DNA of 38,491 nt from Ruegeria sp. (lineage in GTDB: Bacteria > Pseudomonadota > Alphaproteobacteria > Rhodobacterales > Rhodobacteraceae), in contig NZ_JALCBM010000002.1 in assembly GCF_028066395.1 (NCBI RefSeq), positions 59,421 to 97,911 of the forward strand, read 5' to 3'. The notes beneath the pieces were generated by a model. That model saw only the letters and a list, made by a program, of their open reading frames with translations, made no database searches and had not been told where the DNA came from. The position numbers and the translations under genes were made by a program. This document shows, piece by piece, positions 9,644 to 37,422 of this stretch. Within the stretch, counting starts at the first letter, position 1. Each line of letters begins with the position of its first letter.

Positions 9644-11692
9644 ATGACCACCGATCCTCTTGTCGTCTTTACCCCCTCGGGCAAACGCGGGCATTTTCCC
9701 GTGGGGACTCCGATCCTGACCGCTGCGCGCCAGCTTGGGGTCGATCTGGATTCGGTCTGCGGCGGGCGCGGTATCTGCTCGAAATGCCAGATCACCCCCA
9801 GCTATGGCGAGTTTCCCAAGCATGGCGTCACCGTATCCGAGGACGCGCTGAGCGAATGGAACGCGGTCGAGCAGCGCTATGACGACAAGCGCGGGCTGAA
9901 ACCGGGCCGCCGTCTGGGCTGTCAGGCCTCGGTACAGGGCGATGTGGTGATCGACGTGCCGCCCGAAAGTCAGGTCCACCGTCAGGTCGTCCGCAAGGCC
10001 GCTGCCGCCCGTGCCATCACCATGGACCCGGCCACGCGGCTGTATTTTGTCGTGGTGGAGGAGCCCGACATGCACTCGCCCACCGGCGATCTGGAACGTC
10101 TGGAACGCGCCCTGCGCGAGCAATGGAAGATCGAGGCCGTCACCGCCGATCTGTCGCTGATGTCCAAGCTGCAGCCCGTCCTGCGCAAGGGCAAGTGGGA
10201 GGTCACCGTGGCCGTCCACAAAGGCCACAAGGACAGCGTCGCGCGCGTCGTGGAAATCTGGCCCGGTCTGCATGAACAGGGGCTGTATGGTCTGGCCATC
10301 GACCTCGGCTCGACCACCATCGCCGCGCATCTGACCGATCTGGAAACCGGTGAGGTCAAGGCATCCTCGGGCCTGATGAACCCGCAGATCCGGTTCGGCG
10401 AGGACCTGATGAGCCGGGTGTCCTATTCGATGATGAACCCCGGCGGCGACAAGGAAATGACCAAGGCGGTGCGCGAGGCGATCAACGACCTGGCCACCTC
10501 AATCGCCGAAGAGGCCGGGATCGATGCGGCGCTGATTGTCGAGACGGTGTTTGTCTGCAACCCGGTCATGCACCACCTGCTACTGGGTCTGGACCCGGTT
10601 GAGCTGGGTCAGGCCCCGTTTGCGCTGGCGACCTCGGAATCCATGTCTCTGCCCGCGCGTGAGATGGACCTGACCACCATGAACCCGCGCGCGCAGGTCT
10701 ATATCCTGCCCTGCATCGCCGGCCATGTGGGCGCTGACTGCGCCGCCGTGGCGCTGTCCGAGGAACCGGGCAAATCCGAAGACCTCGTGCTGATCGTGGA
10801 CGTGGGCACCAACGCGGAAATCCTGCTGGGCAACACCAGCCGCGTGCTGGCCTGCTCCTCGCCCACCGGCCCGGCCTTTGAGGGCGCGCAGATCAGTTCC
10901 GGCCAGCGCGCCGCGCCCGGCGCCATCGAACGGATCGAGATCGACCCGGTCACCAAGGAACCCCGCTTCCGCATCATCGGGTCCGAGAAATGGTCCGACG
11001 AAGACGGCTTCGATCAGGACATCGCCACCACCGGCATCACCGGCATCTGCGGCTCGGGCATTATCGAGGCCGTGGCCGAGATGCGCATCGCCGGGCTGCT
11101 GGATGAAAGCGGCCTGATCGGTTCGGCCGCACAAACCGGCACGGCGCGGTCCATCCCCGAAGGCCGCACCCACGCCTATCTGATCCACGATGCCAGCGCC
11201 GAGGGCGGCCCGCGCATCACCGTCACCCAGGGCGACATCCGCGCCATCCAACTGGCCAAATCCGCGCTTTACGCCGGTGCTCGCCTGCTGATGGACGAGA
11301 TGGAGGTCGACAAGGTCGACCGTGTGGTGCTGGCCGGGGCGTTCGGGGCCCATATCTCGACCAAACACGCGATGGTTCTGGGCATGATCCCCGATGCGCC
11401 GCTTGAAAAGGTCTCCAGCGCGGGCAATGCCGCCGGAACCGGCGCGCGGATTGCGCTGTGCAACATCGGATCACGGGCCGAGATCGAACGTGTCGTGCGC
11501 GAGATCACCAAGATCGAAACCGCCATCGAGCCCAAGTTCCAGGACCATTTCGTCGCCGCCAACGCGATCCCGCACAAAACCGACCCGTTCCCGGAACTGG
11601 CACAGGTGGTCACCCTGCCCGCGCCCAGCTTCAACACCGGCGGGGCCGAGGCCGAATCGGGCGGCGGCCGCCGCCGCCGTCGTCGGGGTTGA
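9644..11692 (+). CDS. RamA-like corrinoid reactivation protein (2Fe-2S, DUF4445)
   Basis: This 682-residue protein is of the RACo/RamA type, which uses ATP to drive re-reduction of accidentally oxidised Co(II) corrinoid in methyltransferase systems. The N-terminal ferredoxin-like domain has a 2Fe-2S set C39, C45, C48 (CGGRGICSKC) and C93 (LGCQ). A middle domain leads to an ASKHA-fold ATPase from about residue 219 (AIDLGSTTIAAHL, VDVGTNAEILLG, GICGSGIIEA, VLAGAFGAH). The extreme C-terminus is GGGRRRRRRG, an unusual basic tail. The start ATG 9644 has an AAGG upstream. It is divergent from guaB, with a methyl-THF:corrinoid methyltransferase operon 2 kb away. In roseobacters such proteins are known to support split, cobalamin-dependent methionine synthase; that role is inferred here. 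Confidence 0.88.
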   Translation: MTTDPLVVFTPSGKRGHFPVGTPILTAARQLGVDLDSVCGGRGICSKCQITPSYGEFPKHGVTVSEDALSEWNAVEQRYDDKRGLKPGRRLGCQASVQGDVVIDVPPESQVHRQVVRKAAAARAITMDPATRLYFVVVEEPDMHSPTGDLERLERALREQWKIEAVTADLSLMSKLQPVLRKGKWEVTVAVHKGHKDSVARVVEIWPGLHEQGLYGLAIDLGSTTIAAHLTDLETGEVKASSGLMNPQIRFGEDLMSRVSYSMMNPGGDKEMTKAVREAINDLATSIAEEAGIDAALIVETVFVCNPVMHHLLLGLDPVELGQAPFALATSESMSLPAREMDLTTMNPRAQVYILPCIAGHVGADCAAVALSEEPGKSEDLVLIVDVGTNAEILLGNTSRVLACSSPTGPAFEGAQISSGQRAAPGAIERIEIDPVTKEPRFRIIGSEKWSDEDGFDQDIATTGITGICGSGIIEAVAEMRIAGLLDESGLIGSAAQTGTARSIPEGRTHAYLIHDASAEGGPRITVTQGDIRAIQLAKSALYAGARLLMDEMEVDKVDRVVLAGAFGAHISTKHAMVLGMIPDAPLEKVSSAGNAAGTGARIALCNIGSRAEIERVVREITKIETAIEPKFQDHFVAANAIPHKTDPFPELAQVVTLPAPSFNTGGAEAESGGGRRRRRRG

Positions 11693-11694
11693 TC

Positions 11695-12377
11695 CTAGAA
11701 CAGAACCGAGGCCACGACTCGGAGCGTCAGACCGGGTCGTGACAGCCACAAGGGGCGCAGATCGGCGGGCTGGCCGTTGATGATCGTGGCCTCAACGTCC
11801 AGATGATCCAGTTGTTCGGGCGGTGTTTCCATCGGGTTTCCCGAGAGGATGGTGAAATCAGCCCGCTGACCGGGCGCGATTTCCCCGAAACGCCCGCCCT
11901 GCCCCAATTGGATCGCCGCATTTGCGGTCATCGCCGTCAAGGCATCCCCAACCGACAAGCCTTGATCCGGGGCAAAACCTTTCCGTCAGGGCCCAACCGC
12001 GTGACAGCGGTTTTCAACGTCGTCATGGGCTGCAAAGGCGTGGCCGGGTGATCACCAGGAAAACTCACCACCGCGCCCAGCAAGGCGCTGGCGATGGGAT
12101 GGGTGTGCGGTTCGACCAATCCGGGCAACACGGTTTTGCCCGGAAACTCAACGCGTGAAACGGTGCCATCCGCATCCAGTTTCAATGCCGTCCCGACCGC
12201 GACGACCTCTCCGCCATCGACCAGCACGGCGTTTGCATTGATCACGCCCGGTGACCAGACCTGATCCGCGACGACAAGGTAGCGGTCAGGATACCGCTCG
12301 GGGCGCGCGACCCAGAACCAGGCAGCGGCCAGAAAAACGATTAGAGCAAGAAAATACTTTAGAAATTTCAAAAACAA
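11695..12377 (-). pseudogene. Amidohydrolase remnant with internal deletion and frameshift
   Basis: The first fragment (12377 down to 11937) begins with a membrane anchor (MFLKFLKYFLALIVFLAAAW), followed by the amidohydrolase entrance PGKTVLPGLVEPHTHP with the metal-binding HxH. The second fragment (about 11990 down to 11695) is a typical amidohydrolase C-terminus, SVGDALTAMTANAA then GEIAPGQRADFTILSGNP, in a different reading frame. Intact YtcJ-like relatives have about 550-600 residues, so roughly 350 residues of the barrel are missing. Neither piece could hold a working active site. The two pieces overlap near 11940-11990, where the frame is lost. It ends 2 nt from the convergent RamA-like gene. 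Sequencing error cannot explain a deletion of this size. Confidence 0.8.
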
Positions 12378-12481
12378 ACACTCTCCAACGTGGCAAAGGT
12401 TAGGAAATGGCGTTTCAGCCTGCCCAGCCTGACATCACGTCACAAGAGGTGGATTGGTCAGATGGCTTTGTTGGGGAAATC

Positions 12482-12555
12482 TGGAGCGGGTAGCGGGAAT
12501 CGAACCCGCGCGTTCAGCTTGGGAAGCTGACAGGCTACCATTACATCATACCCGC
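12482..12555 (-). tRNA. tRNA-Gly (anticodon CCC)
   Basis: The minus strand folds into a full cloverleaf. The acceptor stem is GCGGGTA/TACCCGC with an encoded CCA, the anticodon stem TCAGC/GCTGA encloses loop TTCCCAA (anticodon CCC), and the T arm contains GGTTCGATTCC. It lies 44 nt downstream of ppk2 on the same strand. Confidence 0.95.
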
Positions 12556-12599
12556 CGCGCCCTCTGGATACCCTGCCCTTTTCCGGGGTTCAAGCGGGT

Positions 12600-13424
12600 T
12601 CAGTCGGTCCGGGCGCGCAAACTGTCGATCAATGCCTGATCCACGTCCAGCACGCGCCCGGCCGCATCCAGCGTCTTGTGATCCAGATGCTGCGGGTTCA
12701 GGTCAACCCCCACCGAAAACGCATCAACAATCGCCGACATCGCCTTGATACGGGCGTATTTCTTGTTGTTGGCCGGGATCACATGCCAGGGCGCGATCTC
12801 GGTCGAGGTCTGGGTCAGCATCTCATCCACGGCCTCTTCGGTCTGACCCCATTTCTCGCGGTTTCGAAAATCCTCGTAGGTCAGTTTCCAGCGTTTCGTC
12901 GGATTGCGCAGCCGTTCGGTAAAGCGCGCCATCTGTTCTTCGGGCGAGATGTGGAAGAACAGTTTGACGATCCGCGTGCCGTCATCGACCAGCATCCGTT
13001 CAAAATCGTTGATCTCGCGATAGGCCGCGCGCCAGCGGGCCTCGGGCGTCAGCTGTTCGACCCTTTCCACCAGCACACGCCCGTACCAGCTGCGGTCAAA
13101 GGCCGAGATCGCGCCCGCAGGTGGCAGCCTTTCCCAGAAACGCAGCAGGTAATGACGGCTGAGGTAATAGTTGCGTGGCGCGCCAATGGGCCAGACCTTG
13201 AAACTGCGCGGGTCCAGGGCCTGGCTGATGCGGCGGATCGTGCCGCCCTTGCCCGCCGCGTCCCAGCCTTCGAACACCAGCACCCCTTTGAGGCCGTGAA
13301 ACAGGAACGCCTGCTGGATCAGTGCCAATTGGGCCTGCAGATCGGCAAGCTGTTCCAGATAGGCGCGCTTGCCCAGTCGGTGCGACAGATCGGCATCCGC
13401 CAGTTTCGGAGGGGTTTGGGTCAT
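12600..13424 (-). CDS. ppk2: Polyphosphate kinase 2 family protein
   Basis: PPK2 enzymes transfer phosphate between polyphosphate and nucleotides. The 274-residue protein is a single PPK2 domain: Walker A GWDAAGKG at residues 53-60, the Walker B-like FDRSWYGR around D110, and the lid region with RFTERLRNPTKRWKL. The length and single domain fit class I, most often used to make GTP or ATP from polyP, but substrate preference cannot be read from sequence. ATG 13424 (MTQTPPK) has an AGGTG upstream; the longer open frame would run through the terminator upstream and is rejected. It lies 118 nt downstream of the methyltransferase operon, behind a strong terminator, so it is probably transcribed separately. 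A polyP-degrading Ppx is encoded 2.7 kb away. Confidence 0.92.
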   Translation of the reverse strand: MTQTPPKLADADLSHRLGKRAYLEQLADLQAQLALIQQAFLFHGLKGVLVFEGWDAAGKGGTIRRISQALDPRSFKVWPIGAPRNYYLSRHYLLRFWERLPPAGAISAFDRSWYGRVLVERVEQLTPEARWRAAYREINDFERMLVDDGTRIVKLFFHISPEEQMARFTERLRNPTKRWKLTYEDFRNREKWGQTEEAVDEMLTQTSTEIAPWHVIPANNKKYARIKAMSAIVDAFSVGVDLNPQHLDHKTLDAAGRVLDVDQALIDSLRARTD

Positions 13425-13493
13425 CGGCGCACCTGTTCTTCTGCAACAGGCACAGTTTTGCGACGCAGACTCCGAAGCACAATGATCCGCATC

Positions 13494-13523
13494 AAAAAAG
13501 GCCGGGCAAGCGGCCCGGCCTTT
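13494..13523 (-). terminator. Rho-independent terminator of the C1 operon
   Basis: AAAGGCCGGGC (13497-13507) and GCCCGGCCTTT (13513-13523) form a perfect 11-bp stem with a 5-nt loop. On the minus strand it is followed by a run of six T. It lies 20 nt past the methyltransferase stop, a clear intrinsic terminator. Confidence 0.93.
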
Positions 13524-13542
13524 GTGCAATCTATGGCGCGGT

Positions 13543-14604
13543 TCAGGCGCGGCGGCGGCGTCCCCCACCGCGACGGCCACCGGCGGCACCGGCAGCGCCC
13601 GCCTCATCCGGGGCTTTGTTGAATCGAATCCACTCGCCGCCATGGGCGTCGTTGTTGGTCAGCAGGTTGGCGGCGCGGATGGCCTCCATTTCCTTGCCCG
13701 CGCGCGGCTTGGTCGAGCCCAGACCGAACATCTGCACGAACGCCTCATCATCCATGCCTTCAGGCAGGATGATCCCGGCGGTGGCGACGGCCTCTTTCTT
13801 CTCGGCGATTTTCTTTTGCGTCACCGGCAAGGCGACCGGGTTCATGATCGCCGAGGTCATGCCAGCGCCCATCGCCATCGGCAGGAAGGCGTTGTTGATG
13901 CCGTGACGGTTCGGCAGACCGAACGAGATGTTGGACGCACCACAGGTGGTGTTCACGCCCAGTTCCTCGCGCAGACGACGGACCAGAGCGAACACCTGCT
14001 GCCCGGCGGTTGCCATCGCGCCGATGGGCATGACCAGCGGGTCAACCACGATGTCATGGGCCGGGATGCCGTGATCGGCTGCGCGTTCCACGATGGTCTT
14101 GGCGACGGCAAAGCGCACATCGGGGTCTTCCGAGATACCCGTGTCGTCATTCGAGATCGCAACAACCGGCACGTTGTATTTCTTGACCAGCGGCAGCACC
14201 ATTTCCAGACGCTCTTCTTCGCCGGTGACCGAGTTCAGCAGCGGGCGGCCTTCGGCTGCGGCCAGACCGGCCTCCAAAGCACCGGGAACCGACGAGTCGA
14301 TGCACAGCGGCACATCGACCAGACCCTGCACCAGCTCGACGATTTTGGTCATCAGCGGCGGCTCGGTCTCGTTCGGGTTGGGGTTCGAGTTGTAGACAAC
14401 GCCCGCGTTGATATCCAGAACCGTGGCCCCGGCGGCAACCTGCGCCAGCGCGTCTTTCTCGACGGTCGAGAAATCGCCCGCCTCAAGCTCGGCAGCCAGT
14501 TTCTTGCGGCCCGTCGGGTTGATCCGTTCCCCGATGACGCAGAACGGTTCGTCAAAGCCCAGAACGGCGGTTTTTGTTTTTGATTCGACGACTGTACGGG
14601 TCAT
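13543..14604 (-). CDS. Methyltetrahydrofolate:corrinoid methyltransferase
   Basis: This 353-residue protein is a pterin-binding (DHPS-like) TIM barrel of the MtvB/AcsE/MetH-middle-domain type, which moves the methyl group of methyl-THF to Co(I) corrinoid. Visible signatures are VIGERINPTGRKKL, ATVLDINAG, PLCIDSS and CGASNISFGLPNR. It lacks the cobalamin and homocysteine domains of a full MetH, so it must work with a separate corrinoid protein, which is not in this window. The C-terminus ends in an Arg/Gly tail (GGRRGGGRRRRA), like the RamA-like protein. It starts 9 nt after the MTHFR-like gene and ends at a strong terminator, so it is the last gene of the operon. The most likely role is a split methionine synthase; demethylation of a methylated substrate is the alternative. 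Confidence 0.88.
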   Translation of the reverse strand: MTRTVVESKTKTAVLGFDEPFCVIGERINPTGRKKLAAELEAGDFSTVEKDALAQVAAGATVLDINAGVVYNSNPNPNETEPPLMTKIVELVQGLVDVPLCIDSSVPGALEAGLAAAEGRPLLNSVTGEEERLEMVLPLVKKYNVPVVAISNDDTGISEDPDVRFAVAKTIVERAADHGIPAHDIVVDPLVMPIGAMATAGQQVFALVRRLREELGVNTTCGASNISFGLPNRHGINNAFLPMAMGAGMTSAIMNPVALPVTQKKIAEKKEAVATAGIILPEGMDDEAFVQMFGLGSTKPRAGKEMEAIRAANLLTNNDAHGGEWIRFNKAPDEAGAAGAAGGRRGGGRRRRA

Positions 14605-14613
14605 GTCCGGTCC

Positions 14614-15540
14614 TTAGGAGTTTACGGGCTTTGCCGAAGCGCCGCCATTGTTGATGGCCCAGTTGGCATTGGTCTTGATGCCGCCAAGCGGGAAGAAGTG
14701 TACATTGGTGATGTTGAAATCCGGGTTGGCGGCCTTGTGTTCGGCCAGTTCGGTCAGAACATCGGTCGGCTCATAGGGCAGCAGCAGCTTGGACACATCC
14801 ATGGCGCGTTTCTGCAGAACCTTCAGCGAGGGGCCGACACCGCAGGCGATGGCGAATTTGATCAGCGTCTGCAGCTTGGCCGGACCCGCGATGCCGATAT
14901 GGATCGGCAGATCGATACCGGCCTCTTTCAGGCTGTCCGCCCATGCGATGATCGGCTTGGCGTCGAACGCGAACTGCGTGGCCAGCGCCATTTCCGCATC
15001 GGTGGTTTCGTTGAACTTCTGCTTCCAGCGCAGCGCCTCGTCCACGTTTTTGGTCGAGCCGTCGGGGTCGATATCCTTGTTGCCCTCGGGGTGGCCTGCC
15101 ACGTGCAGACGCTTGAAGCCCGCCTTGTCGAACAGACCGGATTCCATCAGTTGCATGGAGCTGTCGAAATCGCCATGGGGTTTGTCCACGCCACCGGCCA
15201 GCAGCAGCGCCTGATCAACGCCCGCCTCGCCCTGATACATGGAGATCCAGTTCTGCAGCGTCGCGGCATCTTTGATGATGCGCGCCGGGAAATGCGGCAT
15301 GACCGGATAGCCTTCGGCGGCGATGCGCTTGGCGGTCTTGACCATGTCCTCGATGGGCGTGCCCTCGATATGGGCGATGTAGACGCGGGTGCCTTCGGGC
15401 AGCAGCGCGCGGAAATCCTCGACCTTTTCGGCGGTGCGGGGCATCACCTCGATCGAATAGCCCTGCAAAAAGGCTTCGACGGTCGGATTCACCGGGCCGT
15501 TGTCGGCCGCATCACGTTTCTTGAAGTTCAGCAAAGCCAT
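14614..15540 (-). CDS. Methylenetetrahydrofolate reductase-family protein
   Basis: This 308-residue protein resembles the alphaproteobacterial MTHFR-family branch found next to corrinoid methyltransferases. It would reduce methylene-THF to methyl-THF using a flavin. Segments consistent with the barrel are PRTAEKVEDFRALLP, YIAHIEGTP, ALLLAGGVDKPHGDFDSSM, KRLHVAGHPEGN and PIHIGIAGPAKLQTL. It is clearly diverged from the E. coli MetF type. ATG 15540 (MALLNFKK) is preceded by GGGAGG. It starts 26 nt after the PF13769 protein and 9 nt before the methyltransferase, so the three form an operon. The position supplies methyl-THF directly to the following enzyme. Confidence 0.85.
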   Translation of the reverse strand: MALLNFKKRDAADNGPVNPTVEAFLQGYSIEVMPRTAEKVEDFRALLPEGTRVYIAHIEGTPIEDMVKTAKRIAAEGYPVMPHFPARIIKDAATLQNWISMYQGEAGVDQALLLAGGVDKPHGDFDSSMQLMESGLFDKAGFKRLHVAGHPEGNKDIDPDGSTKNVDEALRWKQKFNETTDAEMALATQFAFDAKPIIAWADSLKEAGIDLPIHIGIAGPAKLQTLIKFAIACGVGPSLKVLQKRAMDVSKLLLPYEPTDVLTELAEHKAANPDFNITNVHFFPLGGIKTNANWAINNGGASAKPVNS

Positions 15541-15566: not shown

Positions 15567-15863
15567 TCATGCCCAACCGTCATTGGCGATCAGGGTCTTG
15601 ATCCGGTCCTGATCGTATTCCGTTTCCAGACGCACGGCCTCGGCCTCGGCGATTTCCGAGGGGTCGCCCTCAACCGCAAAAGGCTCGGCCTTGCGCCATT
15701 CGGCCAGATAGGCATCACTGTCCTTGGCGTTCACCTTCATCGCGGCCCGGTCGATGGCTTGTTCGAACCGTTCCTCCAACTGCCGTTTTGCGCCGCGCCG
15801 GCCCTTGCCGACGATGACTTGGGCGGGAATGTCGCGCCAGTAAACGATGGTGACGTCAGGCAT
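15567..15863 (-). CDS. Small PF13769 ('virulence factor') domain protein
   Basis: This 98-residue protein starts MPDVTIVYWRDIPAQVIVG and belongs to the family named virulence factor (PF13769), whose real function is unknown. It has no signal peptide or membrane helix. A strong Shine-Dalgarno (TTAGGAGGAAT) precedes ATG 15863. It is the first gene of the operon with the MTHFR-like and corrinoid methyltransferase genes, which points to a role in C1/cobalamin methyl transfer rather than virulence. The charged segment RGAKRQLEERFEQAIDRAA is probably helical and could mediate protein contacts. I name only the family; the role is an inference from context. Confidence 0.82.
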   Translation of the reverse strand: MPDVTIVYWRDIPAQVIVGKGRRGAKRQLEERFEQAIDRAAMKVNAKDSDAYLAEWRKAEPFAVEGDPSEIAEAEAVRLETEYDQDRIKTLIANDGWA

Positions 15864-36804: not shown

Positions 36805-37422
36805 ATGGCGGGGTCCATGTCCTGGTTCATCCGTTTCAACAAACCCTTCGACGTGCTGCCGCAATTCACCGACCGCGCCAATGCGGACAGCCCGCGCCGC
36901 ACCCTGTCGGATTTCATCGACCTGCCGCGTGTTTATCCGGCCGGGCGGCTGGATCGCGACAGCGAAGGGCTGATGCTACTGACCGACAATGGCAAGCTGC
37001 AGGCGCAAATCTCTGATCCCAAGCACAAGATGGCCAAGACCTATTGGGTGCAGATCGAAGGGATACCCGACGCCGCCGCACTGCAGGCCCTGCGCGATGG
37101 AGTTGAGTTAAAGGACGGCCTGACCCGTCCCGCCAAGGCCCGACTGATGGAGGCGCCAGAGGCGCTCTGGCCGCGCACGCCCCCCATTCGTGAACGCAAA
37201 TCGGTGCCTGACAGCTGGGTGGAACTGACCCTGCGCGAGGGCCGCAACCGGCAGGTGCGGCGGATGACAGCGGCAGTGGGCCATCCCACTCTACGCCTGA
37301 TCCGCGTCCGCATCGGCGACTGGACTCTTGACGGGTTGGAACCCGGCAAATGGGACAGCCTGCCCATGCCCACTCTGAAAGTCGAGCAAACGCGCAAACG
37401 CGACCGCCGCCCCCGCCGGTGA
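36805..37422 (+). CDS. RluE/RsuA-type rRNA pseudouridine synthase
   Basis: This protein of about 205 residues is a single-domain RsuA/RluE-type pseudouridine synthase without an S4 domain, the form of RluE (23S rRNA). [11 protein letters not shown] opens the fold, the catalytic Asp is in [15 protein letters not shown], and [25 protein letters not shown] is the third motif. A basic tail ([10 protein letters not shown]) may add RNA contacts. ATG 36805 is given, but ATG 36817 (MSWFIRF) is equally likely because RluE relatives start there. It is divergent from the HNH gene, with a DnaA box upstream. The VOC-family gene follows 31 nt downstream. Confidence 0.9.

Follow-up and report, generated by a model that had tools for sequence, protein, structure and literature searches.

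In Phaeobacter inhibens, methionine synthase is split into three proteins that are assisted by RamA-like and DUF1638 helpers, as mutant fitness indicates (Price et al. 2018, PMC5764234). The RamA-like gene, PGA1_c15200, is required for growth without methionine, and Price et al. inferred that DUF1638 acts in B12 reactivation (PMC5764234). Mausz et al. 2025 (PMC12478193) named the components MtgC (corrinoid protein), MtgD (pterin protein), MtgE (homocysteine protein) and MtgB (the PF06253 donors). In that work, mutants showed that MtgC and MtgD act in methionine synthesis and glycine betaine use alike; metF2 lies downstream of mtgD in R. pomeroyi, and mtgC expression across the global ocean frequently exceeds that of the previously known glycine betaine pathways. 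Mutants of relatives are methionine auxotrophs or lose the use of glycine betaine (PMC5764234, PMC12478193). We analyzed a 38,491-nucleotide stretch of Ruegeria sp. DNA (assembly GCF_028066395.1, contig NZ_JALCBM010000002.1, positions 59,421 to 97,911; the window), which on sequence grounds holds the RamA, MtgD and MetF2 of such a split B12 methionine synthase and glycine betaine demethylase system (MtgB, MtgC, MtgD, MtgE and RamA). Its RamA and MtgD both end in arginine-rich tails.

We propose that these tails are one instance of a shared tag that docks client enzymes on the MtgC hub by charge complementarity, in place of the covalent tethers of MetH, and we put the probability of this reading at roughly 0.6. 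The tag is an arginine-rich cluster that a linker joins to one end of the enzyme: C-terminal in MtgD, MtgE and RamA, and N-terminal in MttB, the family of MtgB. Its candidate complement is an acidic N-terminal segment of MtgC. Terminal docking domains and short linear motifs, as in modular synthases, are short terminal elements that bring separate catalytic modules together; here, by comparison, one charge code would span four unrelated families and a common hub.

The window's system has the same kinds of protein, the same pathway and the same single carrier as the MtgBCDE, RamA and DUF1638 system of P. inhibens and R. pomeroyi, where function was established genetically (PMC5764234, PMC12478193). 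In the available text, the words "tail," "arginine" and "disordered" are absent from PMC12478193, "arginine-rich" from PMC5764234 and "arginine" from PMC12366255. The open-access literature searched, a scope outside which most subscription papers and supplements fall, gave no account of the tags or of the acidic MtgC end; the enzymes are known, and the tag system appears to be undescribed. MetH likewise handles homocysteine, folate, cobalamin and reactivation (PMC5764234), all on a single chain. In the MtaBC methanol system of M. barkeri, an N-terminal addition on MtaC sits in a groove formed between MtaB subunits and seems to stabilize the complex (PMC9842639). That addition is a domain for one dedicated partner, whereas MtgC would offer a short acidic motif to many basic-tagged clients. 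In the quaternary amine systems of Eubacterium, one corrinoid protein serves several MtgB-like MttB homologues (PMC12478193); the related chains 2QNE and 9YCE start 15 and 2 residues ahead of the aligned core, in constructs that may be trimmed.

Two Tailed Enzymes and Their Partners

The features that carry the two tails are as follows.

9644..11692, + strand: RamA-like corrinoid reactivase (2Fe-2S plus RACo/ASKHA), ATG at 9644 and stop at 11690-11692; candidate client of the corrinoid hub
11600..11659, + strand: RamA linker from folded core to tag, residues 653-672; the RACo_C_ter match stops at residue 652
11660..11689, + strand: RamA C-terminal tag, GGGRRRRRRG, read from the sequence
13543..14604, - strand: MtgD, methyltetrahydrofolate:corrinoid methyltransferase, a pterin-binding TIM barrel (PRK07535, Pterin_bind, Foldseek); candidate hub client
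13546..13581, - strand: MtgD C-terminal tag, GGRRGGGRRRRA, read from the sequence
13546..13602, - strand: predicted disordered C-terminus of MtgD, residues 335-353 (AlphaFold2 predicted local distance difference test, pLDDT, below 50)

The RamA-like protein has four Pfam matches above cut-off (RACo_C_ter at 5.6e-86, Raco_middle, RACo_linker and Fer2). It scores below the NCBIfam cut-offs for RamA (TIGR04270, 94.8 against 500 bits) and AcsV (NF040756, 401.2 against 800 bits), and by these profiles it is a relative and neither named member. Its C-terminus reads ...AEAESGGGRRRRRRG, and the linker before the tag differs in length and sequence among orthologues. MtgD matches PRK07535 (406.7 bits, cut-off 259) and Pfam Pterin_bind, finds MeTr and MetH folate-barrel structures as its top Foldseek matches, and is 97% identical to MtgD of Ruegeria sp. 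Ofav3-42. Read from 14604 to 13543 on the - strand, it ends in ...AGAAGAAGGRRGGGRRRRA; its AlphaFold2 model is usable, with a mean pLDDT of 78.4 over the whole chain. About 44 extra residues precede the last helices (within 13600-14604, - strand) in the MtgD of the window and of one genome of the same family (G018; numbers beginning with G and L are our handles for genomes and loci), a stretch that is absent from nine MtgD of other families in the same alignment.

Both arginine tails are present as an earlier note on this DNA had described them. The note was also right that the two enzymes are unrelated in fold, because their Pfam domains differ (RACo_C_ter, Raco_middle, RACo_linker and Fer2 against Pterin_bind). 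Common ancestry of the tailed enzymes is rejected, both by their different domains and by the position of the tag, which is C-terminal in some families and N-terminal in another. A C-terminal tail was counted when the last 25 residues held 8 consecutive residues with 4 or more Arg, or with 5 or more in a strict form. Three of the 26 window genes, called heuristically, pass the strict form: RamA, MtgD and a PseudoU_synth_2 gene described below. Both RamA and MtgD would pass by chance with a probability of order 1e-5, relatedness ignored, and the comparative sequence data that follow make a chance origin untenable.

Names for the other proteins of the system were assigned by domain, similarity and neighborhood. 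The window's assembly (89.66% complete) has a single match to the PF02607 B12-binding cap (B12-binding_2), in a 232-residue protein, and no second one such as MetH. It also has two PF02574 proteins, one of them of MtgE type (G000:C9), and 12 PF06253 (MttB/MtgB) homologues. The parts of a split system are present: a separate MtgD, a corrinoid protein, MtgE, a RamA-like reactivase and MttB-family donors. MtgE ends in ...APERRTRRRRRA, that is, RRTRRRRRA, and its PF02574 paralogue is without a tail; orthologues of MtgE occur class-wide, some of them, as in G046, close to MtgC. A basic stretch lies at the N-terminus of each of the 12 MttB homologues, for example MSEANTRRRTRGGGGAARRAERTA and MNDQSRNSPRSGGRAARRAARA, with a net charge of at least +5 in 20 residues in 11 and +4 in the remaining one. 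MtgC is untagged; its N-terminus is MSDEEDIVLSELNDDELVEQMFDDLYDGLKEEIEEG, and its net charge is -24 overall and -15 over the first 40 residues. DNA-pattern scans for tails were unusable: a first scan gave 7 matches against 6 in the control, and an SGN-codon scan of this genome gave 74 against 115 in the reversed control.

Tags Across the Class and Beyond

We sampled 114 genomes of the class, of which 26 have RamA relatives, 24 of hub type, from 23 families. Those 26 genomes and 10 without RamA were searched for MtgD, MttB, MtgE and MtgC, and the protein ends were then read; the class-wide counts also include genes in loci from a phylum search, which adds few genomes. Duplicates and one MtgE cut by a contig end (G038, L158) are excluded from the C-terminal counts. 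The background consisted of 443 genes of these genomes, taken from 31 regions of 20 kb chosen at random, with heuristic gene calls and N-termini taken from predicted starts. Under the rule of at least 4 Arg in 8 residues, tails are present on 29/31 hub-type RamA, 30/30 MtgD and 27/29 MtgE, compared with 12/443 background C-termini (2/443 at 5 or more).

For MttB, an N-terminal tag was scored as a 20-residue stretch with a net charge of at least +5. It is present in 109 of the 115 untruncated proteins, against 29/443 background N-termini, a count that is slightly generous because scoring took in as many as 25 residues before the aligned start and may include sequence ahead of the real start codon (for example in L235 and L266). 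The 115 comprise 110 of 120 rows and 5 proteins from phylum neighborhoods, with two truncated frames dropped; the rows left out are 9 that are mostly fragments or lie at contig edges, plus a C-terminal fragment (L133). Two of the six MttB below +5 are divergent (L264, which adjoins its own corrinoid gene, and L267), and the other four have weaker tags.

The tails also keep company with one another. In 18 of the 24 hub-bearing genomes all three C-terminal tails (RamA, MtgD and MtgE) are present, and 3 more have tails on both of the proteins that could be assessed, so that co-occurrence in orthologues, a point on which the earlier note's reading turned, is borne out. The remaining 3 of the 24 (G013, G050 and G069) miss at least one tail at the very end; in G013 the RamA tag is present and is followed by about 40 further residues. 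Among relatives outside the hub system, tails occur on 0/2 RamA, 0/3 MtgD and 1/5 MtgE, where the single case (L171) duplicates a hub MtgE and is truncated. One hub-bearing genome (G033) has tagged RamA, MtgD and MttB along with hub MtgC, and its sole MtgE-like match lies in a 1242-residue MetH-type frame; the tags are therefore independent of MtgE.

A second, named set consisted of the best 80 MtgD loci among GTDB genomes, mostly Rhodobacterales. There, 80/80 MtgD pass the rule of 4 Arg in 8 residues and 72/80 its strict form of 5, with 77 distinct ends, and RamA is tagged in 12/12 loci where it is present. MetF2, which belongs to the same methyl pathway and for which corrinoid contact is not expected, served as a negative control and is tagged in 0/76; in the window it is as follows.

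14614..15540, - strand: MetF2, methylenetetrahydrofolate reductase paralogue (weak MTHFR matches), untagged

Other genes of the named set pass in 15/865 cases (3/865 at 5 or more). One locus titled Nocardioides marinus, an actinobacterial name (L371), has an MtgD 91% identical to that of the window and is probably mislabeled or contaminated. On the annotated plasmid p1 of Paracoccus methylovorus, the tag lies inside MttB by the database start codons, RamA and MtgD are tagged, and two MetF proteins, DUF1638 and MtgC are untagged.

Could the tails be low-complexity drift, that is, neutral runs of CGN and GGN codons in genomes of high guanine-plus-cytosine (GC) content? They are of low complexity, vary in length and occur mostly in GC-rich hosts, as drift would have it. 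The genomes that are not GC-rich speak otherwise: all four tags are kept at a local GC of 32-35% in one genome (G051), with mixed CGN, AGA and AGG codons, and most are kept in two at ~42-44% (G038, G050). The tags also sit at set ends of four unrelated families in a 23-family class sample, at 93-100% against <3% of background C-termini, and MetF2 lacks them; in tail alignments the linker is variable, and some arginines are invariant or nearly so. Tails are far rarer on unrelated proteins of these genomes; similar frequencies would, by the earlier note, have pointed to drift. Fisher values for tag enrichment are 2e-32 and below; these treat relatives as independent and overstate significance, and we therefore place weight on the breadth of families. 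On the named-set counts, the low-GC genomes and the background comparison, we reject GC-driven drift and give it almost no credence.

The distribution extends beyond the class. In a phylum sample of 397 genomes, 49 have hub MtgC, 2 of them outside the window's class; in these two, MttB, MtgD and RamA are tagged and MtgC is acidic (MtgE is not within the 20-kb stretches read). MttB was found in 48 genomes of this sample, each of which also has hub MtgC, and the sample accordingly offers no MttB without a hub as a control. The one hub-MtgC genome without a PF06253 protein at the threshold used (G207, L312) has an intact acidic motif and possibly represents a methionine-only version of the system. 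Among known structures, the MttB 4YYC, presumably from S. meliloti, has the tag, and RACo 3ZYY is matched over 7-645, its chain stopping nine residues beyond the match.

An Acidic Segment in MtgC

The hub MtgC set contains 59 distinct sequences from 62 loci, picked by a DDLYDG-type motif present in all 62; the set does not include every hub found. A core, L..L....L..Q, stands just before that motif in 59/59. A relaxed acidic motif is present in 57/59, and the strict form, [DE][DE][IL][ID]L..L.D[DE][DE]L..QM.DDLYDG, in 36/59. The 18 residues that precede DDLYDG have a net charge of -4 or lower in 59/59; over 56 distinct hub segments, with a plasmid copy of -2 included, the mean is -6.2. The relaxed motif was found in 0/11 other corrinoid proteins and MetH caps, whose net charges run from +2 to -4, and the acidic motif is absent from the aligned cap stretch of four MetH-type proteins. 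In the corrinoid protein 1Y80, four residues stand in place of MtgC's 18. An AlphaFold2 model of MtgC built from two sequences reached a pLDDT of 38 and was unusable.

Proposed Docking on MtgC and Its Alternatives

The separate synthase and quaternary-amine demethylase proteins would all need one carrier, MtgC, whose clients would be the 12 MttB/MtgB of the genome, MtgD (for folate), MtgE (for homocysteine) and RamA (for reductive reactivation). The complement on MtgC would be its acidic N-terminus, with the L..L....L..Q core before DDLYDG and acidic residues around it. Binding of the tags to this end may be weak and rapidly exchanging, which would keep clients close to the carrier in the way that the covalent linkers of MetH do, so that a dozen donors could share one carrier; the folded domains would supply catalysis and specificity. 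We infer the tag binding, the receptor role of MtgC and the tethering from the pattern of the sequences. Tags are carried by the four families that pass methyl groups or electrons to or from the corrinoid, the carrier is oppositely charged and MetF2 is untagged, and docking on MtgC is therefore the simplest reading; as the corrinoid protein is untagged and of opposite charge, it is the candidate receptor.

The earlier note had seen the tail on two enzymes of one system, suggested that it may be a docking tag, perhaps acting on the corrinoid protein or on RNA or polyphosphate, and asked whether corrinoid and MttB-family proteins have it as well. Both tails stand, and the number was too narrow, with MtgE and MttB making four client families; MttB is tagged at its N-terminus, and MtgC proved to be the oppositely charged exception. 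The docking interpretation itself gains partial support from co-occurrence and from rarity in the background, with binding as the proposed step.

Several observations weigh against docking on MtgC. Poly-Arg peptides readily bind RNA and polyphosphate, which leaves specificity unexplained. RamA and MtgE of G069 and MtgE of G050 are untailed despite an intact MtgC motif, and a plasmid-borne, divergent MtgC (L347) is less acidic at this end (net -2) with tagged clients beside it. The charge ranges of the hub and of other corrinoid proteins meet at -4. DUF1638, confirmed by Pfam and a presumed reactivation partner, is untagged in 7/7 clusters read, so that the distribution within the pathway is four client families tagged, MetF2 0/76 and DUF1638 0/7. 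The MtgE homologue Bmt of P. inhibens is active alone in vitro with dimethylsulfoniopropionate and betaine (PMC12366255), and may therefore not depend on the hub.

Other corrinoid systems give a mixed control. In two of them (G066 and G107) the RamA relative is untailed and the MtgD-like protein fails the tail rule; the MtgD-like protein of G107, outside the hub system, nevertheless ends weakly basic (L268), a further point against the reading. The divergent MttB proteins divide: L264, L267 and L349 (an annotated 418-residue MttB homologue of S. meliloti) are untagged, and L265 and L266 are basic. Three of these MttB-like genes each adjoin a corrinoid gene (L265 in G064:C30, L266 in G072:C116 and L264 in G064:C98). 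Where the hub motif is absent, the tag is absent too in the RamA relatives of G066 and G107 and in MttB L264, but not in L265 and L266, which are basic N-terminally though their own adjacent corrinoid proteins lack the hub motif; these two also count against docking on MtgC.

The main rival has the enzymes brought together by a polyanion (RNA, polyphosphate, DNA or acidic lipid) to which their Arg/Gly tags would bind, with MtgC itself not directly recognized. Many nucleic-acid-binding proteins have tails rich in Arg and Gly, and two genes of the window are relevant.

12600-13421, - strand: gene of a PPK2-family polyphosphate kinase, with ramA and mtgD on either side
36805-37419, + strand: RNA pseudouridylate synthase, PseudoU_synth_2 (Pfam), the third window gene with an arginine-rich C-terminus

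The tail of the synthase would suit RNA binding. The PPK2 gene loses its force as a polyphosphate clue, and we give it no weight, because mtgD and ramA abut in 13/14 clusters read outside the window's genus (L272-L276, L278, L307-L310, L313, L314 and L347), leaving no room for it; the exception is L277, in which they lie 12 kb apart. A polyanion would also do little for the hub, which is strongly acidic, has no basic tag and would not be helped to join a cluster so gathered; MetF2 and DUF1638, of the same pathway, are untagged. We consider gathering by a polyanion unlikely.

The tags might instead drive a multivalent, condensate-like assembly with the acidic hub in place of one-to-one docking. 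An oligomeric MttB would present several arginine tags, as the homohexamer of M. barkeri suggests (PMC9842639), and the MtgD tail is of low complexity and predicted to be disordered, facing a hub of opposite charge. The tags are short, however, and the sequences hold no evidence for condensates; the idea departs from docking in stoichiometry more than in chemistry, and as a separate explanation it seems quite improbable.

Regulation is a further candidate: the tags could be targets of a protease or modifying enzyme, or could autoinhibit by binding their own acidic cores. Terminal disordered tails can be degrons, and in the single cluster for which charge was calculated the cores of RamA, MtgD and MttB have a net negative charge, so that a tail could bind its own core. 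Such a role would leave unexplained why corrinoid-serving enzymes share the tag and why the acidic motif was found in hub MtgC alone, and we hold it to be very improbable. Charge-complementary docking on MtgC remains the reading we favor.

Other Genes of the Window

A small PF13769 ("Virulence_fact") protein adjoins metF2 (15567-15863, - strand), and a second PF13769 protein adjoins DUF1638 in another locus (L308, 11723-12067), so that PF13769 may belong to the corrinoid system. Beside ramA lie two separate short frames (11695-12377, - strand), perhaps the remnant of a decayed gene; by eye, they resemble the N- and C-terminal parts of one amidohydrolase-like protein whose middle is missing.

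Implications

If clients dock on MtgC as proposed, a single short linear motif on four unrelated bacterial enzyme families would be an unusual case. Extending the reading, we suggest tentatively, and with some doubt, a common electrostatic plug code, in which acquiring a short, disordered arginine tag at either terminus would turn any methyltransferase into a client of a single acidic B12 carrier. New substrate-specific demethylases could then be added without a new carrier, and the covalent architecture of MetH would have an open-ended, noncovalent counterpart in its place. The tag would also serve as a sequence handle for predicting corrinoid clients among uncharacterized MttB proteins. A shared tag and a complementary hub motif would thus offer a concrete, easily tested answer to how one carrier meets a dozen partners.

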